Source: an uncultured Collinsella sp. (lineage in GTDB: Bacteria > Actinomycetota > Coriobacteriia > Coriobacteriales > Coriobacteriaceae). From it: DNA of 18,738 bases. Each line of letters opens with the position of its first letter. The stretch's first letter is position 1. The translations under genes and the position numbers were made by a program. Below, piece by piece: positions 34-18,738 of the stretch. The stretch is from the NCBI GenBank assembly GCA_902491415.1, contig CABUHP010000009.1:1-18738 (forward strand), given 5' to 3'. The notes under the pieces were generated by a model. That model was not told the origin of the DNA. It worked only from the letters and a program-made list of their open reading frames with translations, and did no database searches.

Positions 34-49
34 CAGGCTAAAGCCCGTA

Positions 50-83
50 ACACAAAAGGAGGGGCCTTGTAAGGCCCCTCCTT
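50..83 (-). terminator. Rho-independent terminator of the permease gene
   Basis: Perfect 13-base inverted repeat with arms at 56-68 and 71-83. On the minus strand the stem is followed by TTTTGTGTT, giving the usual stem plus U-rich tail. It starts about 48 bases past the permease stop codon at 131. On the plus strand no T run follows, so termination is directed at minus-strand transcription. Confidence 0.85.
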
Positions 84-130
84 AGGAAAGGGAATCGATT
101 TATTCCAAAGCCGTAGATTAATCCTAGCCG

Positions 131-1606
<1,476 letters not shown>

Positions 1607-1622
1607 TCATCTGTTAAATGTC

Positions 1623-1661
1623 ATCTAAACCCGTCCGAGCTGCAAGTGCAAACACGGACGG
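1623..1661 (-). promoter_or_regulatory. Inverted repeat and weak promoter candidate upstream of permease
   Basis: A perfect seven-base inverted repeat, CCGTCCG at 1631-1637 and CGGACGG at 1655-1661, flanks a 17-base spacer about 37-67 bases upstream of the permease ATG. On the minus strand TTGCAC (1646-1651) and TTAGAT (1623-1628) are spaced 17 bases apart, a weak -35/-10 pair inside or next to the repeat. This could be an operator over the permease promoter. Both elements are weak matches and may be chance. Confidence 0.28.
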
Positions 1662-1670
1662 CGCACCTGC

Positions 1671-1714
1671 TAAGGGGAATGGGGAAAAGGGAGTCAACAA
1701 AGCCATCCCCCTTA
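1671..1714 (-). terminator. Stem-loop after the lacZ operon, no U tract
   Basis: The arms at 1671-1682 and 1703-1714 form a 12-pair stem in minus-strand RNA, with one G-U wobble and a 20-base loop. It starts 34 bases after the stop codon of the small galactosidase-associated gene. No U run follows, so it would be a weak or factor-dependent terminator, or a 3'-end stabilising structure. Confidence 0.45.
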
Positions 1715-1747
1715 ACGGCGCGAAGCAAACGCCCAGGCGGACGAATA

Positions 1748-2203
1748 CTACTTGTTGGGGAAGGAATAACCTTCGACTGTCACGTGCAGTACCACGACGC
1801 GGGGATCCGCGGCATCGGCCACGACACGGTAGGCCTCGTCAATTTCGACGACGGCAACGCCGCCGGTGGGAATCGTCACGGTCTCCCCCGTACCCTCAAA
1901 GCGCTCGCGATCATCGATATCGCTGTAGGAGCGCGTACAGGTAAGATCGGCCTTGGAAGCCACCTCAACGGTCAGATTGCCGTCGAGCGGGGCGAGCACG
2001 GCATGGTAGCGACGGTGACCGACCAGATCGGCAGTAGCCGCCTCGTGGGCGTTCACCCACCAATACACCAGCGAGTCGCCGATAGAGTACGCCACATCGT
2101 GCTGCAGTTCAGAAACGCCGTCGAGTGCCTGACCGGTACGCATCCACTTCTTGACGGACTTCATCTGAGCGTCGAAATCGGCGCGCGAGTTAAAGACATG
2201 CAT
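1748..2203 (-). CDS. YhcH/YjgK/YiaL-family (EbgC-like) protein
   Basis: The product is 151 residues, the same size as EbgC, the small subunit of the E. coli Ebg beta-galactosidase, and as other YhcH/YjgK/YiaL (DUF386) beta-sandwich proteins. Features that fit are the early GHRRYHAVLAPLDG segment, the central IPTGGVAVVEIDEAYR strand pair and a C-terminal VVVLHVTVEGY strand. Family members bind sugars or sugar acids; EbgC is needed for full activity of its large subunit. Translation starts at ATG 2203, only three bases after the lacZ stop. Its Shine-Dalgarno AAGGAGG lies inside the last lacZ codons, so the two genes are almost certainly co-transcribed and translationally coupled. The likely role is an accessory subunit or a sugar-handling partner of the galactosidase. 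The family call is more secure than the exact role. Confidence 0.8.
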   Translation of the reverse strand: MHVFNSRADFDAQMKSVKKWMRTGQALDGVSELQHDVAYSIGDSLVYWWVNAHEAATADLVGHRRYHAVLAPLDGNLTVEVASKADLTCTRSYSDIDDRERFEGTGETVTIPTGGVAVVEIDEAYRVVADAADPRVVVLHVTVEGYSFPNK

Positions 2204-2206
2204 GGC

Positions 2207-5227
<3,021 letters not shown>

Positions 5228-5250
5228 TCATCATCGTAGTGTTTTCTGTG

Positions 5251-5260
5251 CAACCGGTTG
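5251..5260. promoter_or_regulatory. LacI-family operator 1 (at lacZ transcription start)
   Basis: Perfect ten-base palindrome CAACCGGTTG. It lies a few bases downstream of the predicted lacZ -10 box (5266-5271), that is, over the expected transcription start. It has near-identical copies 42 and 87 bases away (centre to centre). A repressor bound here would block initiation. The adjacent LacI-family gene is the obvious candidate binder. Confidence 0.75.
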
Positions 5261-5265
5261 TCCTT

Positions 5266-5295
5266 ATCTTACGGGCGGTACAAAAAGTTGTGCAA
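5266..5295 (-). promoter_or_regulatory. Predicted lacZ promoter
   Basis: On the minus strand a TTGCAC -35 box (5290-5295) and a TAAGAT -10 box (5266-5271) are separated by 18 bases. The -35 box overlaps operator 2, and the predicted start falls in operator 1. This gives a 5' leader of about 40 bases before ATG 5215. Confidence 0.55.
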
Positions 5296-5302
5296 TCGGT
5301 TG
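5293..5302. promoter_or_regulatory. LacI-family operator 2 (over lacZ -35)
   Basis: CAATCGGTTG, a one-base variant of the other two copies, in the same orientation and flank context (GTG before, TCC after, as at operator 1). It overlaps the predicted -35 hexamer of lacZ, a classical repression position. Confidence 0.68.
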
Positions 5303-5337
5303 TCCGCCGAACGGTCGATTTTGCCGGATTAACGGTG

Positions 5338-5355
5338 CAACCGGTTGTACAACCG
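5338..5355. promoter_or_regulatory. LacI-family operator 3 with overlapping palindrome
   Basis: A third CAACCGGTTG at 5338-5347 is centred 45 bases from operator 2. It overlaps a second perfect palindrome, CGGTTGTACAACCG, at 5342-5355, so three half-sites are packed together here. It lies upstream of the lacZ -35 box and may serve as an auxiliary site for looping or cooperative binding. Confidence 0.65.
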
Positions 5356-5500
5356 TGATACTTATGTCACTCTGAGTATCGATACACCGCGCAAAACAAC
5401 GCCCTTAAGCTCGTGGGCAATCGCCGCGCCCGCCGACAACTCGCCCATACGAGACGTTTTGGACACGGCTTGGTTGCAAAACGGTACCGACTACCGGATA

Positions 5501-5529
5501 TCGTGAACGCTGTTCGGGCGCACTATACT
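5501..5529 (+). promoter_or_regulatory. Predicted promoter of the LacI-family regulator
   Basis: A good -10 box, TATACT, at 5524-5529 lies about 60 bases before the regulator ATG. The best -35 at 17-base spacing is TCGTGA (5501-5506), which is weak. A GGTTGCA half-site like those in the lacZ operators occurs at 5472-5478, but no full operator overlaps this promoter. Confidence 0.45.
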
Positions 5530-5589
5530 AATCTGTATCCGCATGAACCTTTATTGATAGCCCGCCGGCTCAATTGCACAGGAGACGCC

Positions 5590-6606
5590 ATGAACCGATC
5601 AGCACACACCGCACCCACGCTTGCCGAGGTTGCCGAAGCTGCCGGTGTATCGCGCTCCACGGCATCGCGAGCACTCAACGATTCACCCCGCATTAGCGAG
5701 GAGACAAAAAAGCGCGTCCGCGCGGCGGCAAAAAAGGGTTACTTCGTTCCCAACGCACGCGGCAGGGCACTCGCCGTCGGACGCACGGAAATAATCGCCA
5801 TACTGGTTACCGAGCCCCTTAATGAGCTGTTCGGCGACCCCACCTACAGTGAGTTTTTGAGCGGCATTACCGAGGAGCTCTCGGAATCGTCTTACCTGCC
5901 CGTGATCTTGCAAGCGTCTTCATCCCATGAGCGCAGCCGCGCACGTGAGCACTTTGAGCGCCGCTCCTTCGACGCCGTCATCGACGTCTCGCCCTACAAG
6001 GGCAGCGAACTGCTCGAAGTGCTGCGCGAACTGAACGTTCCGACGGTATTGTGCGGCCAGCTCGAAGGCCATCCCTACCGCGATGTGTTCTCGACGGTCT
6101 ATTCGGACGACGAAGAGGGCGGACGCTTTGCGGCGCTCGCCATGAAGGAGCGCGGGCGTAAGGATATCGTTGCCGTGCTGGGACCTCGGGACAACCCCGC
6201 CGTCATCGACCGCCTTCGCGGCTACCGTGCGATTTTGGGCGAAAGCCTTGACGACGACAATGTCATCTATACCGGATGGAGCAGCGGAGACGGCTACCAG
6301 GCCGCGCGGCAACTGCTCGCGCGCGAAATCCACGCCGACGGCGTGCTCTGCGGATCGGACCGTATCGCGACCGGCGTTATCGCCGCATTCAACGAAGCCG
6401 GATTCAGCGTGCCACAAGATGTTTCGGTCGTGGGCTTCGATGACCACGAGGTCGCCGCTCGCGCCGTCCCCGCGCTTACCACCATTCGCCAGCCGCTGCG
6501 CGAAGAAGGCCGCGCGGCCGCAGGCATCGCGCTCGATATGATCAACGGCGCCGAGCCCACCACCACCGTCATGCACATGCAGCTCGTTCGGAGAGACTCG
6601 CTGTAG
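5590..6606 (+). CDS. LacI-family transcriptional regulator of the lacZ operon
   Basis: A 338-residue protein of standard LacI/GalR length. Residues 9-31 form the helix-turn-helix (TLAEVAEAAGVSRSTASRA), followed by a hinge around 50-63 (VPNARGRALAVGRT). Residues about 66-335 form the periplasmic-binding-protein-like effector domain, with the usual VPQDVSVVGFDDHE and TTIRQP signatures. It should bind a sugar and release DNA, acting in the cytoplasm as a repressor dimer. The start at ATG 5590 has AGGAG five bases upstream; a longer reading back to 5413 would add 59 residues that do not belong to the family. It is transcribed divergently from lacZ, and the shared gap carries three CAACCGGTTG operators, so it most likely controls lacZ. 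The inducer is not evident. Confidence 0.92.
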   Translation: MNRSAHTAPTLAEVAEAAGVSRSTASRALNDSPRISEETKKRVRAAAKKGYFVPNARGRALAVGRTEIIAILVTEPLNELFGDPTYSEFLSGITEELSESSYLPVILQASSSHERSRAREHFERRSFDAVIDVSPYKGSELLEVLRELNVPTVLCGQLEGHPYRDVFSTVYSDDEEGGRFAALAMKERGRKDIVAVLGPRDNPAVIDRLRGYRAILGESLDDDNVIYTGWSSGDGYQAARQLLAREIHADGVLCGSDRIATGVIAAFNEAGFSVPQDVSVVGFDDHEVAARAVPALTTIRQPLREEGRAAAGIALDMINGAEPTTTVMHMQLVRRDSL

Positions 6607-6611
6607 GAAAC

Positions 6612-6638
6612 TGCGACCCCTGTGCACCGCATTTTTTT
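6612..6638 (+). terminator. Weak terminator candidate after the LacI-family gene
   Basis: A short TGCG/CGCA stem (6612-6615 with 6628-6631) is followed by seven T residues at 6632-6638, just after the regulator stop. The stem is only four pairs, so this is a weak candidate. Opposing transcription from the gene ending at 6705 meets here. On the minus strand, a CTCAGG/CCTGAG stem around 6650-6690 followed by GTTTTG may serve the other direction. Confidence 0.35.
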
Positions 6639-6704
6639 GGGCGGCAAAACCTCAGGATAATCGCGATGAACGCGGGCGGACGCCCTGAGTGCCGGGCGAT
6701 GGAA

Positions 6705-8276
6705 CTACTCGTTGGCGATCGCGGCGAGCCAGGCGCTCACGCGATCGACGACCTCGCTCCATCCAGCCACGCCCAAGACGCAAAAATAGGGAGCGAACAA
6801 AAACACGTAGCGTGCACGCGTCTCGAACACCATCAAAAATAACGCCAGGGCGCAAACAGCAAGCATGGGCACGACCGTCACGGCATCGAGCCGCCGCGAA
6901 AAACCGAGCAGCACCACGCCCGCGATGCAGCCAATCCACAGGGTCTGAGAGAGCACCTCGAACCACATACCGTTTTGGGCATTGGGGTCTTCGTGGTTAA
7001 AATTGCCGATACCGTAATAGGCCTTGAGTGCTCGGCAGTTTCCATGCAGCTCGATCCAAAACTGTCCCTCGATCCCCCATGCAAACGTTCCGTCCGAAAA
7101 AGCCGATAGCAGCTTTTGGTGATACAGGCGCAAAAGGCCCAAAGGCCCCAGATCATGGATACGCTGTTTCCATACCCGGACATTCATGGCCGAGCGCTCG
7201 CTGGAGGTAGCACAAGCGGCAGAGGCCAAGGCATCGTCCGCATTGTAGACGCCCATGCTCTGACTGTTAAGACCCATCATAAGGTAGTGCGTCATGGACA
7301 GTTCCAGCTCTTTGTTGAGCTGGAACTGCCGAGACGACACGGCATTCGTCACAAACAGCGATAGGCATACCCCGGCCACCAGGGCAGCCGCAAAGGGCGC
7401 GGTGCGCCGCAGGGCCAAAGCGATCCCCGATGCCTCACGGCGCATGCGAGCGACGCGCATAGGCACCGTGAGCATCTCCACAAACAGGGCGGCTGCCAGG
7501 ATAAAGATCGTCGTGGGCTTAATCGCATAGCCCAGCACCGCCACCGCACCCAAGCCAAACCACCCTTGCCAGCGGTTTTTATGGCACACATAGCACCAAA
7601 GCCCAATGGCGGGGCAGAGCATTCCGTAGGTATCGGAATAAGGCACCAATATCCACGGGGACGCGCCGGCAAGCAGGCCGAGCACCACGAGAGTAACGAC
7701 ACCCGCCCGAATGCCACGAAGCCCGCGAGCGGCATGAGCGGCAAAAAACACGGCGAGCGTAACGCACAGACAGCTCCCCACTACAAGCGACAGATAGGTA
7801 TCGGGGCTTCCGAGCGAGCGCCCCACAAAGCTGATGGCACGAAATAACCCATATAAAAACCGCTGGTTGGGGTTTTGGCTCAGATAATCGGCAATGCTTT
7901 GCGGGTCGTCGACCGTTGCCAGGGCCCGGGCATCCCAGTCGGTCTTAAACCAGCACCCCCACACCACGACGAGCTGATAGGCAAACAGGGCGATGCAAAA
8001 CAGCACGACGAGCACGTTCCATGCCCGCCTTGGGTCGCGCACGCGCGGCGCCACGTAAAACGTCGCGATGCGCGTGCAAAAACACAGCGCAAACAACGAT
8101 ATCGCGCCCAGGGCAAAAAACAGCAGCTGCCGGTGCGCGGCAAACGAAAACTTGCACGCATACTCCCAGCCGTCGCACGTAAACAAGATGAGTACCAAGA
8201 TCAGACCAAAGAATGCGACAGCAAGGCGTCCGAACGCTACGACGCCGGCAGCAGGTTGAGAATCAGTGTGTGACAT
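6705..8276 (-). CDS. XrtG-associated GT-C-like membrane glycosyltransferase (TIGR03766-type)
   Basis: A 523-residue polytopic membrane protein with about 11-12 hydrophobic segments. After the third segment the extracytoplasmic loop carries TDWDAR (112-117) followed by NPNQRF (135-140), the acidic-motif and YPNN-like layout of GT-C glycosyltransferases that use lipid-linked sugars. PYSDTYGM (about residues 211-219) and FETRARYVFLFAPYF near the C terminus also fit. This resembles the integral membrane family (TIGR03766, as I recall) reported beside exosortase G. The likely role is transfer of a sugar from a polyprenyl carrier on the outer face of the membrane. It is last in the cluster, 45 bases after the GtrB-like gene that could make the sugar donor. 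The start ATG 8276 has GAGG nine bases upstream. Acceptor and sugar are unknown. Confidence 0.75.
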   Translation of the reverse strand: MSHTDSQPAAGVVAFGRLAVAFFGLILVLILFTCDGWEYACKFSFAAHRQLLFFALGAISLFALCFCTRIATFYVAPRVRDPRRAWNVLVVLFCIALFAYQLVVVWGCWFKTDWDARALATVDDPQSIADYLSQNPNQRFLYGLFRAISFVGRSLGSPDTYLSLVVGSCLCVTLAVFFAAHAARGLRGIRAGVVTLVVLGLLAGASPWILVPYSDTYGMLCPAIGLWCYVCHKNRWQGWFGLGAVAVLGYAIKPTTIFILAAALFVEMLTVPMRVARMRREASGIALALRRTAPFAAALVAGVCLSLFVTNAVSSRQFQLNKELELSMTHYLMMGLNSQSMGVYNADDALASAACATSSERSAMNVRVWKQRIHDLGPLGLLRLYHQKLLSAFSDGTFAWGIEGQFWIELHGNCRALKAYYGIGNFNHEDPNAQNGMWFEVLSQTLWIGCIAGVVLLGFSRRLDAVTVVPMLAVCALALFLMVFETRARYVFLFAPYFCVLGVAGWSEVVDRVSAWLAAIANE

Positions 8277-8321
8277 GGAGCGGTTCCTCGGTAACAGGTT
8301 ATTGGGGTCGGGCGATGCTGG

Positions 8322-9281
8322 CTATTTGCGCTCGGCTACGACATAGATGGGGCGACGCTTGGTTTCCAGATAGGTCTTGGACAGGTACTCGCCCAAGATA
8401 CCGAGCGAAAAGAGCTGGATGCCGCCGATAAGAAGGATTACGCAGATGGTGCTTGGCCAGTCGGCGACGGGATCGCCGAACAGCAGGGCACGCACCACGA
8501 CGAATACGATGCCCGCAAAGGCGGCAAAGCAAAAGAACAGGCCTGTATACGATGCCAGGACCAGCGGGGCAGTCGAAAAGTCGACGATGCCCTCGATCGA
8601 ATACCTAAACAGCGACAGGAGGGACCATTTGGTTCTGCCCGCGACGCGCTCGATATTTTCGTACGAGATCCAGTGTGTCTTAAATCCCACCCACGAGAAA
8701 ATGCCCTTCGAGAAGCGGTTGATCTCGCCCAGAGATAAGACGGCATCGACGAACTTTCTGGTCATGCAACGATAGTCGCGCGCGCCGTCGACGATCTGGG
8801 TCGTCGATATGCGGTTGATCAAACGATAGAACAGACGCGAGAGTGCACTACGCACGGGCGGCTCACCTGTCCGGTTGGCCCGACGCGTCGCCACGCAGTC
8901 GTAATCAGGATTTTGGAAAAGAAATCCCAGCATGTCGGGTATGAGCGACGGTGGATCCTGCAGGTCGGCATCCATGGTTATGACATAGGCCCCACATGAG
9001 GCCGTAAGGCCTGCATAGAGCGCGGCCTCCTTGCCAAAATTACGCGAAAATGAAAGATAGTGTACTGATTCGCTTTGCTGAGCAAACTGCCGGACAAGAT
9101 CGAGCGTGCCATCTATCGACCCGTCGTCCACAAACCAGTACTCCACGTCAAGGTCGTAGAGCTTCTTGACAGCCAGGGCCGCCTTATTCACCTCCCCCAT
9201 GAAAGCATGCAGGGACTCCTCCTCGTTAAAGCAAGGAACGACGATGCTCACCGTGTTGTCACGCGACGTATGCTTATCCAT
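8322..9281 (-). CDS. GT2 glycosyltransferase, GtrB/DPM1-like
   Basis: A 319-residue GT-A family 2 enzyme. SIVVPCFNEEESL (12-24), VDDGSIDGT (51-59) and DADLQDPP (104-111) are the nucleotide-sugar and metal-binding motifs of the dolichol/polyprenyl-phosphate sugar synthase group. Two C-terminal membrane segments (about 238-265 and 276-300) match GtrB-type proteins, which transfer a hexose from UDP- or GDP-sugar to undecaprenyl phosphate on the cytoplasmic face. It should provide the lipid-linked donor for the GT-C-like protein encoded next. I chose ATG 9281; TTG at 9290 is an alternative start, and neither has a strong Shine-Dalgarno. A 64-base gap with a palindrome separates it from the gene before it in the operon. 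Confidence 0.9.
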   Translation of the reverse strand: MDKHTSRDNTVSIVVPCFNEEESLHAFMGEVNKAALAVKKLYDLDVEYWFVDDGSIDGTLDLVRQFAQQSESVHYLSFSRNFGKEAALYAGLTASCGAYVITMDADLQDPPSLIPDMLGFLFQNPDYDCVATRRANRTGEPPVRSALSRLFYRLINRISTTQIVDGARDYRCMTRKFVDAVLSLGEINRFSKGIFSWVGFKTHWISYENIERVAGRTKWSLLSLFRYSIEGIVDFSTAPLVLASYTGLFFCFAAFAGIVFVVVRALLFGDPVADWPSTICVILLIGGIQLFSLGILGEYLSKTYLETKRRPIYVVAERK

Positions 9282-9316
9282 AGCGGTCAATCCCGTCCAA
9301 TCCTGTTTGCCCGAAC

Positions 9317-9333
9317 ATACCCGCAGCGGGTAT
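9317..9333. promoter_or_regulatory. Perfect 17-base palindrome between cluster genes
   Basis: ATACCCGC and GCGGGTAT (9317-9324 and 9326-9333) flank a single base in the 64-base gap between the PTPS-related gene stop (9346) and the GtrB-like start. In RNA it gives a six-pair stem with a five-base loop and no U tract. It could be a protein binding site, an RNA processing or attenuation structure, or an internal control point. The function is unknown. Confidence 0.5.
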
Positions 9334-9345
9334 CATCGGCACCCT

Positions 9346-11798
9346 TTATCCTCTTTGGCGGCACAAGACGACCGCGCCCGCAACTCCCAGCAAGCTTGCG
9401 ACCAATCCGGGCAGCAGCCACGGTGTGCTCAGACGAATCACCGTCGTTCCCCGATCCGCGTACACAAGGCTGTTGACGTCGCGCGCCGCACCTTTAACGA
9501 GTTCCATGTTGTCGAGGGCGGCAAGTGTCGTGTCGGCGTTGTCCGCATCGCTCGAGATCGTTAGGGTGCTGCCGTCCTGCTCCACAGCAAGCTCAACTAC
9601 CTGGCGCTCCGGGCACTCGCTCGGCAGCACGCCGATCGTTTTTGACAGCAGGCGTGCGATACCCTCGTCGCCGGTCAGCGATTCGTAGTAGGCAAGATTC
9701 AACCCCACCACCTTGATATGGCTGTTGGCAAGCGTTCCGCACACCGGCAGCGTCCTCGACCCCTCCTCGATGGTTGCGAGCACGTTTACCAACCCGTTTA
9801 CATATACCGTGCTCCAGCTGGCGTAACCGCTGGGAAACAACGCAGTCTCAAGCGGACCCCCGTCGGTGTAGATCGTAGGAAAGCCACCGGTGAAGGTGAT
9901 GGACTCGCAGTCGAGCCCCAAAAAGGTTTTTTGCCCGCTGTGCTCCTCGTTGGGAATGCCATCGGCGGCAATTACCACATCGACGCCCGTATCGGCCAGG
10001 CGCTCGACAAGCCGCTCGGCAGCAGCACGATCGGTATAGGTAAAGCCGTCAAGGTAGATAACATCGTAGCCGTTGAGCTGGTCAAACGAGTAACTGTCGA
10101 GCGGCGCCGTGGAGGCCTCCTCAAAGATAGGGAACTGCCGGGCAATCGCGGCAGCGCCCGAGCCGATGGCGAGCCCGCGATAGGCGGCGATTACGCCAAA
10201 CGTGGCCGGCGTATCCATGTGGTAGAGACGGTATGTCCCCTGAACGGCGACAAGCTCGTAGCCAATGGCTTTTGCCGCCTGGTCGATCTGGGTATCCGTC
10301 CATTCAACCTGGCTGGGGATGTTCTTGGTGCTCAAAAGCACCGTGTCGTCACCAAGTTCCATCGAGCGATCGAAGACGTAGTCGAACGACCCTTCCGCAA
10401 GTGCCTGGTTGATCTGCGTGTAGTTGTACGAGGTCGACGAGAGCTGGTCGGTAAACCCCTGACTCGTGGCGATGCGCTCGGGCATGCCTGTCACCAGATA
10501 GGAGACTTCGGCATCGAAAAAGTCCTCCCCCACCAGCCCCAGGCGCTGCGTACATACCGCCTTCGCCTGATCGATCAGGGCGCGATCCATATGCGACTGC
10601 AAGCGCTCCACCGGATCGGAGCGCACAAGGATGCCATAGATCAGATTGAACGAGGGGGCGGCGTCTGCAAGCAGCAGTAGACACACGACAACGACGATAC
10701 CCGTCTTGAGCGATCTCCAGAGCGCAAACGAGAACAGGCAAAAGAGCGCCGCAAGCGCAAGGACGCGCGCGACCCCGATATTCGCCCCGTCTGTGAAAAG
10801 GTCGATGACCGGGCATGCCGCCTGAGAGGATACGAGCACGACGACGCATGCGGACCAAAAGCCGGGCATGGCGCGCCTACGGGCACACACAATACCGAAC
10901 AGCGCCAGCGCGACCATTCCCAGCCCCGCATACGCCGCGGAAGTGTCGCTCGTACGGGCAAGGGGATTGAGCAGGCAAGACAAGCTCTGCGCGGCACTCG
11001 ATACCAGCTGGGGCGTCTCGAGCGACGAGGTGTCGCCCACAAGCGAAGGCACGAGCCATACGCCCGCACACAAAACACCGCACGCCAGCGCGCACAGCAC
11101 GCGCACGCCCCGGGCCCAACGACGGCATATAATCCCCTCGATTGCCAGGTAAACAGCAAAGCACAGCACTATCAGCGCGGCAAGCGTAACATCGCACAGT
11201 ACGAGCGCGCAGGCTGCCGCCGCGATGACGGCAAGCTTGCGTGGGCGGCCCCGATCGAGATAGGAGTAGGCGCACCACAGCAGCACGGGCAGTATGCACA
11301 GCACGCTCGGGGAATATCACCGTCGACGAACAGCGTAGAGAGGTTGATCGGCATCAAAAACCACAGCGGACCCAAAACCAGGCCAAGCCATCCGCGATGC
11401 AGACGCATGCCGATAACAAGCCACGACAGGCAACCGATTACGAACAGGGTGACGCAAAACGGCACGAACGCATGTATCCCATCACCTGCGAGCGCAGCCA
11501 CTGCCGTGTAGGCATAGGCGGAAAGTGGCCCCGCATAACGCAGAGGCTGGACACCGTTGTACTGCAGCAGGTCGATCTGGGGCCACCAGATACCGCGTTG
11601 GATCTGGCGCAGCAGCTCCTCACTTCGATAGATGTATCCCAATGCCTGGCCACCGAGGGGATATACCCCGTTATCCGCCACAAGCGTCCACAGCACAACG
11701 CCGGCAGCGGCAATCAGGGCTGCCGCGACCGCGGTAAACGCACGGGGTCGACGCTCGGGCAGCAACAGGACACCGCGCCACTCGTCGGGCATCCTCAT
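9346..11798 (-). pseudogene. PTPS-related large membrane protein, frameshifted
   Basis: Two overlapping minus-strand frames together encode one protein of about 817 residues. The N-terminal 163 residues (from ATG 11798) read PLGGQALGYIYRSEELL, GIWWPQIDLLQYNG and LRYAGPLSAYAY, typical of the 6-pyruvoyl-tetrahydropterin-synthase-related membrane family (PF10131-like, GT-C-like fold). The frame then degenerates, and sensible hydrophobic sequence (VLCILPVLLWCAYSYL) resumes in the -1 frame from 11304 to the stop at 9346. The shift must fall in 11305-11316, most simply at a C4 run (11309-11312), where one more C restores DIPPSVLC. The rest has several membrane segments, then a large outside domain (about residues 390-790) with a stretch like a class I amidotransferase fold, and a final TM. 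It overlaps the PTPS-like gene by four bases (ATGA). It is a pseudogene unless the shift is a sequencing error or is bypassed by slippage. Confidence 0.78.
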
Positions 11799-12244
11799 GA
11801 AAGCTCTCCCAGCAGGCGATCAAATACCGCCCCAGCGTCGTCCAGGGCGACCGTACCGTCGCCCTGAGGCTCCGCGACGAGCTCGTCGCTGTAATCGATC
11901 ACGAAGCTGCGCGTGGGCGTCTCGCTGCCCTCAAACTCAAGCAGCACCGCATCGAACTCGGAAACCACCTGCCGTAGACGCGCGCCGAACACCTCCACGA
12001 GGCTCTCAAGCGACGGCACCACCGTGTCAAAGGGCGCAATTTCGTTGACCGTCTGGTTTTGGTAGGGTGCGAACACCGCGTCGATAGCATGCTCGTATAC
12101 GCCAAACGGCACGAGCTCGGACGAAAGCAGCCCGATCTTTGCACAGAACTCCCAGGTGTGCGGATGCAACTCGCCGCGCTCGCCATCAAAGATTACCCAG
12201 TGGCTCGCGTTGAGATATGTCTTAAAGCGGTAGATTCGTTTCAT
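11795..12244 (-). CDS. 6-pyruvoyl-tetrahydropterin synthase-like protein, XrtG-associated
   Basis: A 149-residue protein of PTPS/QueD size and fold pattern (T-fold). The three zinc-ligand histidines are present: H15 in NASHW, and H27 and H29 in LHPHTWEF, replacing the usual HGHNY. The catalytic Cys that normally lies about six or seven residues before the His pair is absent (FDGERGELH). The C-terminal PTxE motif has become SETPTRSF, so the usual Glu is missing too. It is therefore unlikely to make tetrahydropterin or a queuosine precursor, and more likely binds metal and another ligand. It matches the divergent PTPS-related family known from XrtG loci (TIGR03112, as I recall). Its stop overlaps the start of the PTPS-related membrane protein gene (ATGA), which suggests the two proteins work together. 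ATG 12244 has AAGGGG about ten bases upstream. Confidence 0.82.
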   Translation of the reverse strand: MKRIYRFKTYLNASHWVIFDGERGELHPHTWEFCAKIGLLSSELVPFGVYEHAIDAVFAPYQNQTVNEIAPFDTVVPSLESLVEVFGARLRQVVSEFDAVLLEFEGSETPTRSFVIDYSDELVAEPQGDGTVALDDAGAVFDRLLGELS

Positions 12245-12262
12245 AACCCACGTGCCCCTTCG

Positions 12263-13342
12263 TTATTGCACGGTTGTGTCGTCGCCCACGCCGAGCTTGC
12301 GCGACAGGTCGCTCCAGGCGAGTTCCTCGCCCTCGCGCTGCACGTGCGTCCCCAAGGCCTGCGGGCAGTCACTTACCAAGGAAAGCGCATACTCGGCAGC
12401 CTGCAGCTCGGCACCTATAAAGACCAGCAACAGCACGCCCTCTTTGGCAAAGCGCACGACCGAACGGTCGAGCACTCCCTGCGCCCGGGCCAAAAAGGCA
12501 TCCCGTGCCAAGGGCGACTCAAGCGCAAATGACACCAGCGTCGCAGGCAGCTCGCCGGCGGGCCCGAGCTTTTCTATAAGCACCGGGGCCTGCGACAGCG
12601 CAAAAAGCGAATGTGCGGTATCGAACGGCGTGCGTCCCATAAGGTCGTCGTTGAGGCGCTCGACGGTACAGCGAAGCTCCCGGTTGTCACGCTCGACTTC
12701 AGCGGTGCGGCGACAGACGGCATCGTTTCGAAGCGACATACCCACGCAGGCGATCACGGACAGCACGAGCAGCACGGCGATGGTGACGCCCACGTTGACG
12801 CGTGCTGCAAGATAGGCGTTTTGGTCGATCACGACCTGCTTGCCCGTAAGAAAACACAGGCGGTAGGTGGTCTTGCCGTACGAAAACACGGTGCCCGAGG
12901 CGATATAGGCGCTGCCGTCGATCTGGATAATGGCATGGTCGACAACGCCTTCGCTAAGGCCCGATATAAAAGCAGAGGCCGAAGACGTGCTGTAGTAAGT
13001 CTTGCTCGAAAAACCCCGGTAGCGGCCGCTGGCGTCGACGTCTTTGACAAAGACCAGACTGTTGCCCTTGGATAGCGTCCAGTACTGCGATGCCGAGCCC
13101 GTTATCGAGCCGAGTACCTTGTCGACAATGTCCTCGTCGTCTCGACCCGGCTCGCGCACGATCTGGCCCACCGCGAGCTCAACATACTGGTCTTGTTGGG
13201 TGGCAAAGATCTCGAGCAGGCCGTCCTCGTAGCGCGCAAGCTGATACCACACCGACACGGCGGCGGCCAGCGCGACAGCCATCGCCACGATGGCGACAAG
13301 CCCCGTCGACGGGCGGGCGCGTTTCTTGGTTGCCGAAAGCAC
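12263..13342 (-). CDS. Two-TM membrane protein with possible degenerate GGDEF-like domain
   Basis: I do not recognise this 359-residue protein with certainty. It has a TM at about 14-34, an extracytoplasmic domain of about 150 residues (35-182) that looks like a Cache/PAS-type sensor, a second TM at 183-204, a charged coiled-coil-like stretch (205-233) and a cytoplasmic domain (about 240-350). In that last domain VRFAKEGVLLLVFIG (296-310) followed by an Ala-rich helix is placed like the RxGGDEFxxLL strand of diguanylate cyclases, but the catalytic residues are absent. If real, this would be an inactive nucleotide or c-di-GMP sensor, or a scaffold. The start is GTG 13342, with AAGGA nine bases upstream and only two bases from the preceding stop, so it is in the operon. 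Its job is probably sensing or organising the glycan/exosortase machinery. Confidence 0.7.
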   Translation of the reverse strand: MLSATKKRARPSTGLVAIVAMAVALAAAVSVWYQLARYEDGLLEIFATQQDQYVELAVGQIVREPGRDDEDIVDKVLGSITGSASQYWTLSKGNSLVFVKDVDASGRYRGFSSKTYYSTSSASAFISGLSEGVVDHAIIQIDGSAYIASGTVFSYGKTTYRLCFLTGKQVVIDQNAYLAARVNVGVTIAVLLVLSVIACVGMSLRNDAVCRRTAEVERDNRELRCTVERLNDDLMGRTPFDTAHSLFALSQAPVLIEKLGPAGELPATLVSFALESPLARDAFLARAQGVLDRSVVRFAKEGVLLLVFIGAELQAAEYALSLVSDCPQALGTHVQREGEELAWSDLSRKLGVGDDTTVQ

Positions 13343-13344
13343 CG

Positions 13345-14744
13345 TTACAGTTCCTTAGAATCGTCGTTAACATATGCACGCAGCTCCCGCACGCGCCCAA
13401 GCGGCCGGGACAGGTCGCCCGCGACCACCTTGGTCACCGCATCGCGCTCCTCGGTGAGCGTCGCCGTCTTCCAGGCGCTATCGGTTCCGATGCTGTTTAC
13501 GATGCCCGCCAGGCGAATAAAAAACACCGCCAGGTTAAACAGGGGCAAAAGCGGAACAACCCACCATTGACGGGCATAGTAACGACGGAGGCCATCAAAA
13601 GGCCGTAAAAACGAGACGACGGCGGCGTAGTAGAGGTAGCCACACGCTACATAGAGCACATAGATCGCCAGCACCGCCCCCAGCACCGCCAGCGCCGAAT
13701 AACCCACGGCGAGCAGACAGATCAGGGCGATATACCAGATCAAACGAGGAAACGCAAAGGTGTGGTCATAGAGCAGGGTGTTCACATTGACATCGCGAAG
13801 TGCGCCACGCAGCGATAGGTCCTCGCCGCCAAACATGTGCGCCACCTCCAAGCTGCCGCGCTGCCAACGCTGCCGCTGCGTATAGAGTTTGTCGACGCTC
13901 TCGATGGGGTCGACGAAAAAGATCGCGTTCTCGCACACATGCAGACGCTCATGATGCAGATAGCGCATCTGAAAGGTAATCTGTGTATCCTCGCAGATGG
14001 TGTCGGTGTTGTAGAGCCACGAGGACAGCACCGCATTGCTGCGAAACGCCGTGAACGCGCCCGAGAGCGAATAGATAAAGTTGATCTCGGAGGCAAAGTT
14101 GCGCCCCGCCAAAAAGGCCTGGGCATATTCCACAAACTCCATGCGCCGCAACAACCTGCTAGGCCCGGGGCGGTATGCCTCCACCAGGTCGGGGCTCGTC
14201 ATGATGACGCCGGTAACCACATCGATGGTGGAATCGGACTCAAAGCGCGCGACGAGGTTCTCCAGCGCATGGGGCTCCAGCACGCCGTCCGAATCGATAT
14301 GGACGATATATTTGGCCCGGCTGTTAAACAGGCCCAGATTAAGCGCGCGCGACTTACCCTGCGCCGCGTCCATCCACTGCATAACAAGCTCGGGATGCTT
14401 TTTTGGCAGCGCGCGTACACGCCAAACGAGTCGTCTTGGCTGTTGTTATTGATCAGATAGAGCTGGATGCTCGATAGCGGGTAAGTGCCCTGCGCCACCG
14501 AATCGATACAGGCCTCGAGCGTATCGGCGGAGTTATACACAGGCACCAGTAGCGTGATGGCCGGCGCGATAGAAAGATTGCGGGCGGATGCCTGCAGGCG
14601 TCGCGCATGTCTTTTGCGGCGCACCAGCAAAAGGCAGCTGCCGAGCGCAGGCACGATCTCCATGATGATGGGTATGATGATCCAGGCGGCCCAAAAGATA
14701 AAGCTGCCGCCGATGCGCGCGACCAGTTTAGCTATCGCGCTCAT
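13345..14744 (-). pseudogene. XrtG-associated GT2 glycosyltransferase, frameshifted
   Basis: Two minus-strand frames join into one protein of about 466 residues. The N-terminal part has a TM (about 14-40) and VPVYNSADTL with INNNSQDDS. The downstream frame has HIDSDG (DxD, 149-154), CEDT (251-254), QRQRW (290-294) and C-terminal TM segments. These are the D, DxD, ED and QxxRW motifs of processive cellulose/hyaluronan-synthase-like GT2 enzymes, and the gene fits the exosortase G-associated glycosyltransferase family (TIGR03111, as I recall). The break is at an A6 run (14399-14404): CAA AAA AGC should read CAA AAA AAG CAT CCC, so one base is missing. The true start is ATG 14744 (GGGGAGG seven bases upstream), overlapping xrtG by 17 bases; TTG 14750 sits too close to the Shine-Dalgarno. 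As read, the gene gives only a fragment without the active site, unless slippage or a sequencing error explains it. Confidence 0.85.
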
Positions 14745-15324
14745 AGGCAAACCTCCCCACCTTCATGCGCACGATCTGTGGCTTGGTGAAAACGTAGAAA
14801 TATAGCACGACGGTAAACGCGTAAAAGACGATGCGGCCCACCAGCGAGTGTGCGATGTAGTACCACTGCGTCCCACCAATATGGATGATCTCGGCGATAA
14901 GGATGATACGCACCACGTTGGCAAGGACGATTGCGAGCACGCCGAGGGCACCGACGATCAGACGCTCCGAGCGCCGGTAGACATCGAAAAATGCCAGCAG
15001 CGAGACAAAGGCCATAATCTCAACGATGCCCGAGCACTCAAAGTCAATCTTGAGCGTCATGGCGCCGGCCGCAGAGTCGATAAAGATCACGCCGTATTTA
15101 AAGTAGGCCTCGAAGGTTGCCGTAAGCTTGCCGAAGAGCCCCGCAAGGGCGGCGACGCTTTGGGCGAGTGGCTGCATGGCCCACGGACGAACTAACATCA
15201 TGAGCACGATAAACAGCCCCACCGAGCCCAGCAGAAAGCGCCAGAACTTAAGCCCGGCTCGTTTGAGCACGTGCAGGCCATACAGCCAGGGGACGATAAA
15301 GAGCGCGGCCACGATCTGCGTCAC
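14728..15324 (-). CDS. xrtG: Exosortase family protein XrtG
   Basis: A 198-residue integral membrane protein with about six hydrophobic segments. It carries the exosortase/archaeosortase active-site pattern: Cys97 in FECSGIVE, Arg139 in NVVRIILI and His159 in YYIAHSLVGR, each at a membrane-segment boundary. Exosortases are thought to cleave a C-terminal sorting tail outside the membrane and transfer the protein to an acceptor; XrtG is the small Gram-positive form paired with Firmicu-CTERM tails. The start is GTG 15324, which overlaps the stop of the substrate gene (GTGA); GGGAGG lies seven bases upstream. A reading from further upstream would run inside the substrate's coding sequence and adds an unrelated, Arg/Gly-rich segment. 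It is followed with a 17-base overlap by its glycosyltransferase partner. All three catalytic residues are intact. Confidence 0.92.
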   Translation of the reverse strand: MTQIVAALFIVPWLYGLHVLKRAGLKFWRFLLGSVGLFIVLMMLVRPWAMQPLAQSVAALAGLFGKLTATFEAYFKYGVIFIDSAAGAMTLKIDFECSGIVEIMAFVSLLAFFDVYRRSERLIVGALGVLAIVLANVVRIILIAEIIHIGGTQWYYIAHSLVGRIVFYAFTVVLYFYVFTKPQIVRMKVGRFAYERDS

Positions 15325-17129
15325 GCGCGCGCCTCCCCGTCCTCGGTATGCACGGGCAGGCCGCCATCGGCATCGCCTTTCGCTCCCCGCTTGCGGCGGC
15401 GGTAGCAGCAGACGCCGGCAACGCTCGCCACGCACAGGCCGACCCCCACAAACGGTGCCGTGGAGACGCCGGCGGTCGTTACCCACTGCTGACCCAGGCG
15501 CCCGTACTGGGCCTCGAAGACCTTGATGTCGTTGGGGTCGATGGAGACCGTGTCCTTGGATTGGCCCCAGCCGGTATGGAGGTTTTTGGCAAGCGTGGGG
15601 ATATCGATCTCCCACTCCATCTCATTCTGCCCCTCCGAGACAGTGATCGTCGCCTTGCCGTAGATAACATCGTCTGCCTTGAGATCATTGATGTTCTTGG
15701 ATGTCGCGTTCACCGTGGTCGAGGTGAGGTAGAACTCGTAGGTGCCGTCGCCAAGCCCCGAGAGTTTGGGATTCCAATCGATGTTGCCGTTCGCATCGAC
15801 CGCAATAAAGCGCGGCGTGAGCATAAGGTCGTTATCGTTGTTGATACGAATCGACACCGCCGAGCTAAACTCCCCGCCCGCCTCGGCAAGATGCGCAGAC
15901 ATGTTGGTCACCGCATGGCCGTAAAGCTTTTGCTGGGTGCTGTCGGCATAAAGCGCACCGCGTGCATCCACGGTGTGCTCACCGGTGCCCGCCGTGGCAT
16001 ATTGAATGGTGGAATGGGGGTATCCGCCCCAGTCGTCGTAACTGCCGTCGTAGACGATTCCGTCGAAGGTCTTGCCGCCATCGTCGCCTTTAAGATTGGC
16101 GACGCCGGTGATGGAGGGATCGACCTGGTACAGGCCAAAGTCGATGGTCTTACTATAGTCACCCAGGGCAGAAGCCGGAATGGCAACCTCCCATTTGTGA
16201 GGCGTTTGAGCCCAGGAGTAGTTGTTGCACGCCACCGTAGCGCCGTCCACGCCCGACACCGCCGGGCCGCGCCCCAGCTGCACCAGGGTCTGGTTGCCCA
16301 GGTCGGTGGTGATGGCATATTGCCCGTTGTTGTTGGGACCGGCGCCCGCCATGGCACCGGGATCATCAGCATTGGACTCAAAATACAGGTAGACCCAGTC
16401 GCCGTCCCAAACCATAGCGACCTTGTTGACGGTATCCCAACCCTTGGGGTTGCCGCTGGCATCAAGGTCTTTGATGTCGTATTTGGCGACACCGTCCCAA
16501 TCCGAAAAATCGCCGTCGATCTTGATGCCGGTGTAAGCCGAGGAACCCGTATCCGGATCGGACGTATCGGTCGAGCCGGCATCGCCGGAGCCGCCAGGTT
16601 CCGTTCCCGAGCCCGAATCGGTGCTGCCACCCGGGTTACCGGTGTCGCCCGTGTCGCCCGAGCCGGTATCGGTGGCGCCGCCCATCTGGGCGCTCGTAAG
16701 CGAGACACCGCCAAACGAGGCGGTAAAGCTATCGTTGGCAAAAAAACTCGCGGGGACGCTCACCGTCACGGTGCCGCCCGATGCGCTCACCTGGCCGCCG
16801 GCGACATCGCTATACCACGAATTGACGACCTTGTAGGTGCCGCCCCACGTGGTAAGGATAAGGGCATCTTGCGGAGCATGCTGCTGGCCATCTCCATAGG
16901 CAAGGCGTATATCGCGCTGCCCGAGCGACGAAGGATCGCCCGAGACAGTAAAGGTAAACACGTAGTTGTCGCCCGATTTGATGCCGGACCAATCGCTCAC
17001 CTGACTGTCGGAGACGGCCAATGCCGATATCGCGCGCACGGCAGGCGAGAAAGAGTACGACGCCATGGTCACAATCATCGTAGCGGCCGCAGCACGCTTG
17101 ATAAACGACGTGATCTTGATACGTTTCAT
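15321..17129 (-). CDS. Secreted Firmicu-CTERM protein, predicted XrtG substrate
   Basis: A 602-residue exported protein. The signal peptide is about 1-33 (basic start, hydrophobic core, cleavage near AVRA). It is followed by a beta-rich domain (about 45-150) and a Gly/Ser/Thr/Asp-rich linker (152-199). Next come a CBM9/DOMON-like domain that starts KIDGDFSDWDG (203-213) and a second, related region that starts VYDGSYDDWGGY (359-370). The C-terminal sorting region is LGQQWVTTAGVSTAP, TM about 557-576, then RRRKR (577-581). Unlike most PEP-CTERM-type tails it continues for 21 more hydrophilic residues. The start is ATG 17129, with AAGGAG 11 bases upstream; ten extra upstream codons would place that Shine-Dalgarno inside the gene. 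It is first in the cluster, and its stop overlaps the xrtG start, so it is almost certainly the dedicated substrate. It probably binds carbohydrate at the cell surface. Confidence 0.88.
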   Translation of the reverse strand: MKRIKITSFIKRAAAATMIVTMASYSFSPAVRAISALAVSDSQVSDWSGIKSGDNYVFTFTVSGDPSSLGQRDIRLAYGDGQQHAPQDALILTTWGGTYKVVNSWYSDVAGGQVSASGGTVTVSVPASFFANDSFTASFGGVSLTSAQMGGATDTGSGDTGDTGNPGGSTDSGSGTEPGGSGDAGSTDTSDPDTGSSAYTGIKIDGDFSDWDGVAKYDIKDLDASGNPKGWDTVNKVAMVWDGDWVYLYFESNADDPGAMAGAGPNNNGQYAITTDLGNQTLVQLGRGPAVSGVDGATVACNNYSWAQTPHKWEVAIPASALGDYSKTIDFGLYQVDPSITGVANLKGDDGGKTFDGIVYDGSYDDWGGYPHSTIQYATAGTGEHTVDARGALYADSTQQKLYGHAVTNMSAHLAEAGGEFSSAVSIRINNDNDLMLTPRFIAVDANGNIDWNPKLSGLGDGTYEFYLTSTTVNATSKNINDLKADDVIYGKATITVSEGQNEMEWEIDIPTLAKNLHTGWGQSKDTVSIDPNDIKVFEAQYGRLGQQWVTTAGVSTAPFVGVGLCVASVAGVCCYRRRKRGAKGDADGGLPVHTEDGEARA

Positions 17130-17165
17130 GCGTCCATCTACTCCTTCTTGTTTAAACATCGCGGG

Positions 17166-17195
17166 ATATTAAATTTAGACAGCCTCGTACGTAAA
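17166..17195 (-). promoter_or_regulatory. Predicted promoter of the exosortase cluster
   Basis: On the minus strand, TTTACG (17190-17195) and TAATAT (17166-17171) are spaced 18 bases apart in an AT-rich pocket of an otherwise GC-rich window. The predicted start leaves a leader of about 30 bases before ATG 17129. It lies just after the aspS terminator, so the cluster should be transcribed independently of aspS. Confidence 0.5.
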
Positions 17196-17203
17196 CGTTT
17201 TCA
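17190..17203. promoter_or_regulatory. LacI/CcpA-type operator upstream of the exosortase cluster
   Basis: The minus strand reads TGAAAACGTTTACG, which matches 13 of 14 positions of the catabolite-response-element consensus TGWAANCGNTNWCA and has an AAACGTTT palindromic core. It overlaps the predicted -35 box, a repression position. It differs from the CAACCGGTTG sites at lacZ, so another LacI/GalR-type regulator, not encoded in this window, would be expected to bind it. Confidence 0.5.
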
Positions 17204-17242
17204 CGAACATCTTACAGACTTTACAAAGCTCGTGCACGTCCC

Positions 17243-17277
17243 ATAAAAAGCGAGGGAAGGCGCGCGTCCTTCCCTCG
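17243..17277 (-). terminator. Rho-independent terminator of aspS
   Basis: Perfect ten-base arms at 17251-17260 and 17268-17277 with a seven-base loop. On the minus strand the stem is followed by CTTTTTAT. It starts 26 bases after the aspS stop codon and cleanly ends that transcript before the exosortase cluster promoter. Confidence 0.9.
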
Positions 17278-17302
17278 TTACAGGCACTATGTAGCCGCTC
17301 GC

Positions 17303-18738
17303 CTACATCAGGCGCAGGCTGACGTCCTTGAGCTGGGCGCCAGAAACGGCGCTCGGGGCGCCCGACATAAGGTCGGAGCCGCTGGCCGTCTTGGGGAATG
17401 CCATGACGTCGCGGATGGATTCGGAGCCGGTGAGCAGCATGCACACGCGGTCCAGGCCCAGGGCGAAGCCGCCCATCGGGGGCGCACCAAACTTGAGGGC
17501 CTCCATGAGGAAGCCGAACTGCGACTCGGCACGCTCCTCGGTAAAGCCCAGGAGTTTGAGCATAGACATCTGCATCTCGGCGTTGTGGATACGCATACCG
17601 CCGCCACCGGCCTCAAAGCCGTCCATGACAAAGTCGTAGGTGCAGGAGCCGGCTGCCAGCGGGTCGGCCTCGATCTTGGCGATGTCGGTCTCGGTCGGCA
17701 GGGTAAAGGGCTGATGCTCGGCTGCATAGGCCTTGCGGTCCTCATCCCAGTGGAACAGCGGGAAGTTGACAACCCACAGGAAGTCGTGGCCCTCGCGCTT
17801 GATCTCGAGCGCATTGGCCATGTGGGAACGCATGCCGCCCAGGATCTCGTCGGAGAGCAGGCGCGGGCCGGCGGCGAACATCACGAGGTCGCCGGGCTCG
17901 ACGTCCATGCGCTCGCGCAGGGCCGCCATCTCCTCGTCCGAGAAGAACTTGACGATGGGGCTGTTGATGGAGCCGTCCTCACGGAAGGCGATCCAGGCCA
18001 GGCCCTTGGCGCCAAACGTGGAGGCCACGCCGGCGAGCTTATCGATCTTGGCACGGGCCCAGGCACCGGCGCCCTTGGCGTTGATGGCCTTGACGACGGA
18101 ACCCTCCTCGTTCGCGGCGGTCGCGAAGACCTTGAACTTGGAGTTGGCAAAGATGTCGGTCAGGTCGACCAGATGCATGCCATAGCGGGTATCGGGCTTG
18201 TCGGAGCCATAGGTGTCCATGGCCTCCCAGTAGTCCATGCGACGCAGCGGCGTGGGCATCTCAACACCCATACGGCCGAAGGCATCGGACAGGACCTCTT
18301 CGAGTGCGCTCATGACATCGTTCTGGTCCACGAAGGACATCTCGATATCGACCTGGGTGAACTCGGGCTGACGGTCGGCACGCAGGTCCTCGTCGCGGAA
18401 GCACTTGGCGACCTGGTAGTAGCGCTCGACGCCACCGACCATGAGCAGCTGCTTCAGGAGCTGCGGGGACTGCGGCAGAGCGTAGAAGTTGCCCGGCTGG
18501 ATGCGGCTGGGAACGATGAAGTCGCGAGCGCCCTCGGGCGTGGACTTGAACAGGGAGGGCGTCTCGACCTCCATGAACTCACGGTTGTGCAGCGCCTCGC
18601 GAATGGCAAAGGTGAAGTCGGAGCGCAGACGCAGGTTGGCCATCATCTCGGGACGACGGAGGTCCAGATAGCGATAGCGCAGACGGGTGTCCTCGCTGGT
18701 CTCGATGCCGTCCTCGATCTGGAACGGCGGGGGGACGG
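17303..18738 (-). CDS. aspS: Aspartyl-tRNA synthetase, 3' part (5' end outside window)
   Basis: The minus-strand frame stays open to the window edge, so the gene is cut at its 5' end. About 477 of an expected 590-600 residues are present, and the N-terminal tRNA anticodon-binding OB fold is mostly outside. The visible sequence begins [10 protein letters not shown] and runs through [16 protein letters not shown], the start of the class II catalytic domain. Motif 2 ([25 protein letters not shown] region), the bacterial GAD insertion domain and motif 3 ([29 protein letters not shown]) are all intact. It charges tRNA(Asp) with aspartate in the cytoplasm. Whether it is discriminating cannot be judged without the N terminus. 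A start at ATG 18646 is not real: the upstream codons are clearly aspS sequence. The gene ends at a strong terminator and looks ordinary for the genome. Confidence 0.97.

Follow-up and report, generated by a model that had tools for sequence, protein, structure and literature searches.

Does a set of glycan-assembly genes packed beside a protein-sorting enzyme act as one machine on one surface protein? The question is raised by a locus of the exosortase XrtG in the window, which here means the whole 18,738-nucleotide stretch of contig CABUHP010000009.1 from an uncultured Collinsella sp. The answer we favor, at a probability of roughly 0.55, is a signal-gated machine: the locus would assemble a glycan and join, or anchor, a single carbohydrate-binding protein to it.

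The XrtG locus and its conserved core

The locus comprises eight co-directional minus-strand genes, running from 17159 to 6705 with small gaps or overlaps, and both the packing and the gene families named in the original prediction were found. Four of the genes score above the NCBIfam cut-offs of XrtG-system models: a 612-amino acid (aa) Firmicu-CTERM substrate (17159 to 15321; TIGR04145, 100.3 bits, cut-off 50), the 198-aa exosortase XrtG (15324 to 14728; TIGR03110, 186.4 bits, cut-off 102.75), an XrtG-associated family 2 glycosyltransferase (GT2) synthase (14750 to 13345; TIGR03111, 122.1 and 422.7 bits for the two pieces of a frame-broken gene, cut-off 363.95), and a 149-aa PTPS-like protein (12244 to 11795; TIGR03112, 106.6 bits, cut-off 69.35). 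The substrate and exosortase matches bear out the predicted identity, and the locus is a true XrtG/Firmicu-CTERM protein-sorting system, of a known but uncharacterized kind. The XrtG family reportedly goes back to Haft and colleagues. The predicted substrate start at 17129 needs correction, being a later in-frame ATG of the gene that begins at 17159. The other four genes encode a putative sensor with two transmembrane (TM) helices (13342 to 12263), a PF10131 (PTPS_related) membrane protein, also frame-broken (11798 to 9346; 48 and 274 bits, cut-off 26.4), a second GT2 that is PgfS-like and, by family resemblance, of the polyprenyl-phosphate sugar transferase type (9290 to 8322; NF047588, 290.2 bits, below the equivalog cut-off of 500), and a GT-C-like membrane protein that is a relative only of TIGR03766 (8276 to 6705; 132.3 bits, below the equivalog cut-off of 500) and scores slightly below cut-off for PMT_2 (25.0 bits, cut-off 26.1).

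A pattern scan of genome contigs with the window's XrtG protein as query, a method that finds close relatives only, gave 62 loci; L001 is from Coriobacteriaceae, L062 from an actinobacterium and L014 from an "uncultured bacterium," and the rest are Clostridia-type or other Bacillota. Forty-seven of these are well flanked, with at least 3 kb upstream and at least 6.5 kb downstream, and single-sequence searches of them found the GT2, the PTPS-like protein, and the PF10131 protein in 47/47. The same searches recovered a sensor from 42 loci, a substrate from 41, and a second GT2 from 2; they gave no GT-C. Family profiles detected sensor-like stretches in all five loci that seemed to lack a sensor (L056, L057, L058, L059, and L061) and substrate-like stretches in five of the six that seemed to lack a substrate (L036, L057, L058, L059, and L061); in L056, an 879-aa open reading frame (ORF) with a GTPTAP-helix-RK tail lies directly before XrtG. 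The predicted conserved neighborhood is thus real, the order substrate-XrtG-GT2-sensor-PTPS-like-PF10131 recurring in Clostridia-type loci, and positions vary: 19 of the 62 loci have PF10131 placed between the substrate and XrtG. The proposal that all eight genes form one system holds for the first six, whereas the last two mostly do not recur with them. A genome-wide search returned exactly one Firmicu-CTERM protein per genome (41/41), in line with the single dedicated substrate that had been proposed.

Compared with the XrtG/Firmicu-CTERM system as known, the window agrees in its exosortase, substrate, GT2, and PTPS-related families, which all score above cut-off, and its gene order is that of many Clostridia-type loci. 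It differs in its Coriobacteriia host, in the added PgfS-like GT2 and low-scoring GT-C, and in a sensor here recognized as CACHE plus degenerate GGDEF fold. The relatives show further variation. The GT2 ORF exceeds 700 aa in 12 of the 62 loci, and in L002 and L053, the two examples checked, the extension is a sulfatase-superfamily domain, nearest in L002 to phosphoglycerol transferase I (169.7 bits, below cut-off). A second small PTPS-like ORF lies upstream of the substrate in 18 of the 47 well-flanked loci, and that of L033 scores above the TIGR03112 cut-off (73.5 bits). In L036, one 624-aa ORF (8445 to 10316) combines substrate (match at 28 to 448) and XrtG (exosortase at 434 to 603).

The last two genes suggest a different view of the locus, as mainly a Pgf-type protein O-glycosylation locus in which the PgfS-like GT2 and the GT-C decorate a Ser/Thr-rich linker in the substrate, XrtG being a side activity. 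The adjacency of a PgfS-like GT2 and a PMT/TIGR03766-like GT-C accords with this, as does the low-confidence Ser/Thr/Gly/Asp linker formed by substrate residues 162 to 206. Pgf proteins modify two Streptococcus mutans surface proteins (PMC5856776), and the pgfS-pgfM1-pgfE-pgfM2 locus likewise sets a membrane GT-A beside a PMT-like membrane protein; only the last two genes of the window resemble that locus, however, and no PgfE is found among the eight. The pair is, moreover, missing from Clostridia-type loci and cannot explain the conserved core, and in a congener (G101; L131, 6998 to 9722) it is found in a genome with no XrtG match. Because the pair is rare in XrtG loci and present without XrtG in G101, we regard it as an add-on, and a Pgf-type locus as improbable. 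By eye, the G101 pair sits in a polysaccharide locus. In the Coriobacteriales genome G442, a GT-C like that of the window (236 bits) comes after GT2-sensor-PTPS-PF10131.

Three domains, all given here on the minus strand, were delimited in the substrate. D0 (residues 42 to 165; 16665 to 17036) matches D1 (residues 206 to 360; 16080 to 16544) in a profile-profile comparison (probability 97.3%, E 2.2e-11), and D2 (residues 362 to 562; 15474 to 16076), which lies within the region of the Firmicu-CTERM model, shares with D1 an IDG..DW start (78% over 51 columns). A CBM9-like fold was found for D1, from which carbohydrate binding is predicted; among the 22 Pfam families listed for 33 substrate members there was no CBM9 model. 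The C-terminal sorting signal (15387 to 15485) consists of WVTTAGVST, a hydrophobic helix, and RRRKR, and a W-x2-TAG-[TA]-S-[ST]-like motif, in a slightly looser pattern, is present in 30 of 33 aligned rows, with variants in the other 3. The GTG start of XrtG overlaps the substrate stop. Its Cys96, Arg138, and His158 (counted from 15321), which we take to be the exosortase/archaeosortase active site, are invariant in 21/21 aligned rows, two of which are weaker exosortases from other Coriobacteriia.

In the favored mechanism, the substrate would be exported and retained by its C-terminal helix, as its sequence suggests. XrtG would cut at or near the TAG-x-S motif through Cys-Arg-His and pass the protein to an acceptor, a cleavage and transfer predicted by analogy with archaeosortase. 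The TIGR03111 GT2, which among named synthases is nearest to PgaC/IcaA, would assemble the acceptor or partner glycan together with the PF10131 protein; in this lineage, the PgfS-like and GT-C enzymes may add polyprenyl-phosphate-borne sugars. The CBM9-like part would bind carbohydrate outside the cell, and the CACHE sensor would read an outside cue and relay it through its degenerate GGDEF fold, or, in a relative, through the fused PTPS-like domain that replaces it, presumably gating the synthases. A substrate joined to a lipid-linked glycan, as originally suggested, would fit this locus anatomy.

The same genes could do less. XrtG may only trim and lipid-anchor (or release) the substrate, while a separate, co-regulated polysaccharide is held noncovalently by the CBM9-like protein. 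CBM9-like domains can bind glycan in that way, PgaC/IcaA is a free-polymer synthase, and two haloarchaeal Pss proteins contribute to archaeosortase-dependent lipid anchoring (PMC7157517). That system, ArtA with PssA and PssD, resembles the window in that a surface protein is acted on by a sorting enzyme from the same superfamily, one that has membrane-lipid proteins as partners; it differs in that the window's partners are glycosyltransferases, and the acceptor here is a prediction. A loose partnership would not need the association found across the well-flanked loci, where substrate, exosortase, and glycosyltransferase set stand together in 41/47 by simple search and in 47/47 once distant members are counted. 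We consider an unjoined polysaccharide possible but rather unlikely, and return to the favored machine and its control.

The sensor and the PTPS-like domain

The original descriptions of a two-TM putative sensor and a PTPS-like protein stand, and both can be refined. At E 0.01, neither NCBIfam nor Pfam gives the sensor a match. Its AlphaFold2 model (mean predicted local distance difference test score 82.3) shows a TM helix, an extracellular CACHE/PAS-type fold, a second TM helix, a coiled coil, and, at residues 244 to 352 (12287 to 12613, minus strand), a degenerate GGDEF fold. As modeled, the protein combines CACHE-type sensing with an output part of degenerate GGDEF fold.

The PTPS-like protein matches PF01242 by sequence (37.3 bits). 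His15, His27, His29, and Glu108 are invariant in 22 rows, so that the three zinc-type histidines and the SETP glutamate of PTPS/QueD are kept, but the positions of the enzyme's Cys (H27 minus 4) and Asp-His, which we take to be catalytic, are lost, and the residue set of a PTPS/QueD enzyme is accordingly incomplete. Relatives also differ from PTPS/QueD in their fusions. In G087, a one-contig genome, sensor and PTPS-like domain form a single 394-aa frame between GT2 and PF10131 that matches the fusion protein P0088 over residues 11 to 396 at 49% identity, and 7 of 96 sensor homologs, among the matches listed, are PTPS-like fusions without the GGDEF-fold part. In L056, L059, and L060, the PTPS-like domain forms the N terminus of the PF10131 protein; Pfam agrees for L056 and L060 and lists only PF10131 for L059, and the PTPS-like alignment of L059 and L060 starts after the HPH stretch. 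Given these fusions to sensor and PF10131, the PTPS-like protein is unlikely to be a free cofactor enzyme. The simplest reading is that, instead of being a pterin enzyme, it may link sensor and glycan enzymes as a binding or coupling module.

What is new here is that, by comparison with relatives, the sensor's inner end is seen to be swapped between two degenerate signaling domains. We tentatively extend this, as a speculative proposal that is more probably wrong than right, to XrtG loci at large: they would be signal-gated glycoconjugate machines in which a PTPS fold without catalytic residues acts as a regulatory output, exchanged with the degenerate GGDEF domain on the CACHE sensor and elsewhere built into the PF10131 enzyme. 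The messenger bound by this fold would be a purine, a pterin, or a nucleotide-like molecule, and the fold would control GT2 and GT-C. If true, a PTPS-fold output would, without any GGDEF chemistry, parallel the control of exopolysaccharide synthases by cyclic diguanylate (c-di-GMP).

Several observations weigh against a signal-gated machine of the kind we favor. A literature search on XrtG and Firmicu-CTERM found no functional test of any XrtG. Two core genes are broken in this contig, and the G087 substrate gene likewise lies in two frames. Foldseek matched the substrate to no Protein Data Bank entry under E 0.001, with CBM9 at 0.014, and a profile search of solved structures gave the PF10131 protein no match at E up to 1; a GT-C fold for PF10131, which we had presumed from its Pfam clan, was therefore set aside. 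The GT-C and PgfS-like genes both fall below their family cut-offs, and the PTPS-like domain has no assigned ligand. The sensor fares no better as a GGDEF protein by sequence: the GGDEF and RxxD motifs are each found in 0/41 aligned rows of the family, no member scores better than E 0.25 with a local GGDEF profile, none of the 96 database proteins, among the matches listed, carries a GGDEF annotation, and a profile-profile comparison of the C-terminal domain with 11 GGDEF domains, L059's own included, was not significant (probability 1.9%, E 0.025).

The GG[DE]EF signature is also absent from all 96 database homologs among the matches listed, and GGDEF is not among the best 25 of 71 weak Pfam families for 41 sensor members. 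Given the motif loss and the null profile results, c-di-GMP binding by the sensor is unsupported, and the idea of a c-di-GMP receptor was rejected: although the fold is that of GGDEF, both motifs have been lost. The same point separates the sensor from PelD of the Bacillus cereus Pel system, which likewise places a degenerate GGDEF fold beside a polymer synthase set (PMC7112168) but binds c-di-GMP through an intact RxxD, the motif lost in the window's sensor family. A neighboring diguanylate cyclase as a rule was likewise dropped; the 62 loci contain 8 GGDEF and 2 EAL ORFs, for which we claim no enrichment.

A paper on expression in Lactiplantibacillus plantarum names the XrtG system and reports that this species has the full set (PMC12854382), and PMC8951740 has XrtG as a table entry. 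The available text of PMC6123363, on c-di-GMP genes in Lactobacillus acidophilus, makes no mention of exosortase. Our literature search found no paper treating exosortase, GGDEF, Firmicutes, and glycosyltransferase together, and gave no substrate modification, acceptor, or signal for XrtG loci, which occur in many Clostridia-type genomes and, here, in Coriobacteriia. With one substrate per genome, a culturable lactobacillus carrying the system should make the XrtG product easy to seek by mass spectrometry.

Frame breaks in two core genes

The first GT2 spans two frames, in pieces at 14750 to 14199 and 14382 to 13345, and so does the PF10131 protein, at 11798 to 11172 and 11304 to 9346. The frame changes, at about 14.40 kb and 11.31 kb, each lie beside a short one-base run. 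Intact counterparts exist in the database: the GT2 P0098 (466 aa, 33 member sequences, 10 contigs of up to 141.7 kb) is 99% identical to the window pieces and the PF10131 protein P0217 (818 aa, 46 members) 100% identical. These near-identical proteins show that the lineage has open GT2 and PF10131 genes. The predicted "complete" cluster is therefore right for the lineage but not for this contig. A 98% copy of the sensor (P0059) has 37 members. The window's own 345-aa GT2 piece is in the database as P0097, from a contig of 18738 bases, so the window looks like an entire contig.

The breaks could mean that the island is decaying, with function lost and the remaining genes relics. Besides the two broken genes themselves, the flanks argue in that direction, as their aligned parts show no insertion or deletion relative to the congener stretches L103 and L105, except between 5464 and 5572, in the stretch that separates lacZ from the likely start of LacI. 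Two events are too few for such a contrast, however, and the intact proteins with 33 and 46 members, together with the open frames of the remaining six genes, speak against decay. Sequencing error or strain variation at one-base runs would also fit the breaks, and we regard decay as very improbable. Programmed frameshifting was also dropped: in the 62 loci, GT2 and PF10131 are each a single ORF, as they are in the intact near-identical proteins, apart from three loci without PF10131, which contig ends cut. In G087, the substrate gene (L081, 17394 to 19483) consists of two overlapping frames; the switch falls between the D0 and D1 domains, within or close to the low-complexity linker.

The island, its flanks, and its distribution

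The whole island (6614 to 17241) is present in the window and absent between lacI and aspS in two congeners, G001 and G077. In L103 (G001), about 240 bp separate the flanks at 49 to 6613 and 17242 to 17816, and the same holds for L105 (G077), so 6614 to 17241 is an insertion relative to those two; the compared stretches of three further congeners match on the aspS side only. The aspS DNA is 95 to 96% identical to that of five congeners, as expected for the Coriobacteriia host that had been proposed. The segment is best explained as a 10.6-kb island that was either gained or lost. The flanks have GC contents of 0.603 and 0.641 and the island one of 0.595, and third-position GC is 0.70 to 0.76 in island genes and 0.79 to 0.87 in flank genes.

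At the aspS edge, a consensus scan found a terminator-like hairpin (17251 to 17277, minus strand; 10-pair stem, T tail) within the part common to L103, the island edge lying immediately beyond it. Palindrome-like repeats (GGAAACTG..CCCC with its complement) lie in the empty site (L103, 576 to 812; L105, 669 to 911), and a scrap of one is still present in the window at about 6606 to 6620; the island may have inserted into such a repeat. Rfam gave no match at gathering scores in the window, and no tRNA was found.

XrtG was found in 0/43 genomes of the genus. Across the class, 17 of 396 genomes have a match at E 0.001, one of them (G087) above cut-off, and TIGR03112 matched 53 of 395 genomes of the order, four above cut-off (G442, G087, G498, and G374). 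G519, the genome of L001, gives the same matches as G498, and the G374 stretch the same as L062, each pair probably being the same genome. A GT2 tree of 48 rows places the window in a group of 8 (support 100/98), together with P0098, P0099, G087, and others, inside a Bacillota-rich part, and L062 and G442 group with a Flavonifractor metagenome-assembled genome (95/85); these groups were defined once the tree had been inspected, and the P rows carry no taxonomy. A single Coriobacteriia clade was rejected with 10 rows (p 0.033) and not with 11 (p 0.067). With the window apart from L062 and G442, a single acquisition was not upheld, and the tree suggests that the locus may have entered Coriobacteriia twice.

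A different exosortase of other Coriobacteriia (L064 to L075 and L083 to L086) scores 74 to 88 bits with TIGR03110, below cut-off, and is perhaps an unnamed exosortase type. A TIGR03111-like GT2 (266.7 bits in L083, again below cut-off) comes immediately after it, and the other XrtG-set genes are missing from the four 20-kb stretches examined. In G087, a convergent 1035-aa GGDEF-PAS-EAL protein (L081, 8647 to 11781, plus strand) lies between the XrtG locus and aspS, and a transposase-like ORF, recognized by eye, lies on the other side. The left flank of the window (131 to 6606) encodes an amino-acid permease (AA_permease_2, 116.2 bits) and, by eye, a lacZ-like protein, a 151-aa companion ORF, and a divergent LacI-type regulator; its DNA is 94 to 95% identical to that of two congeners.

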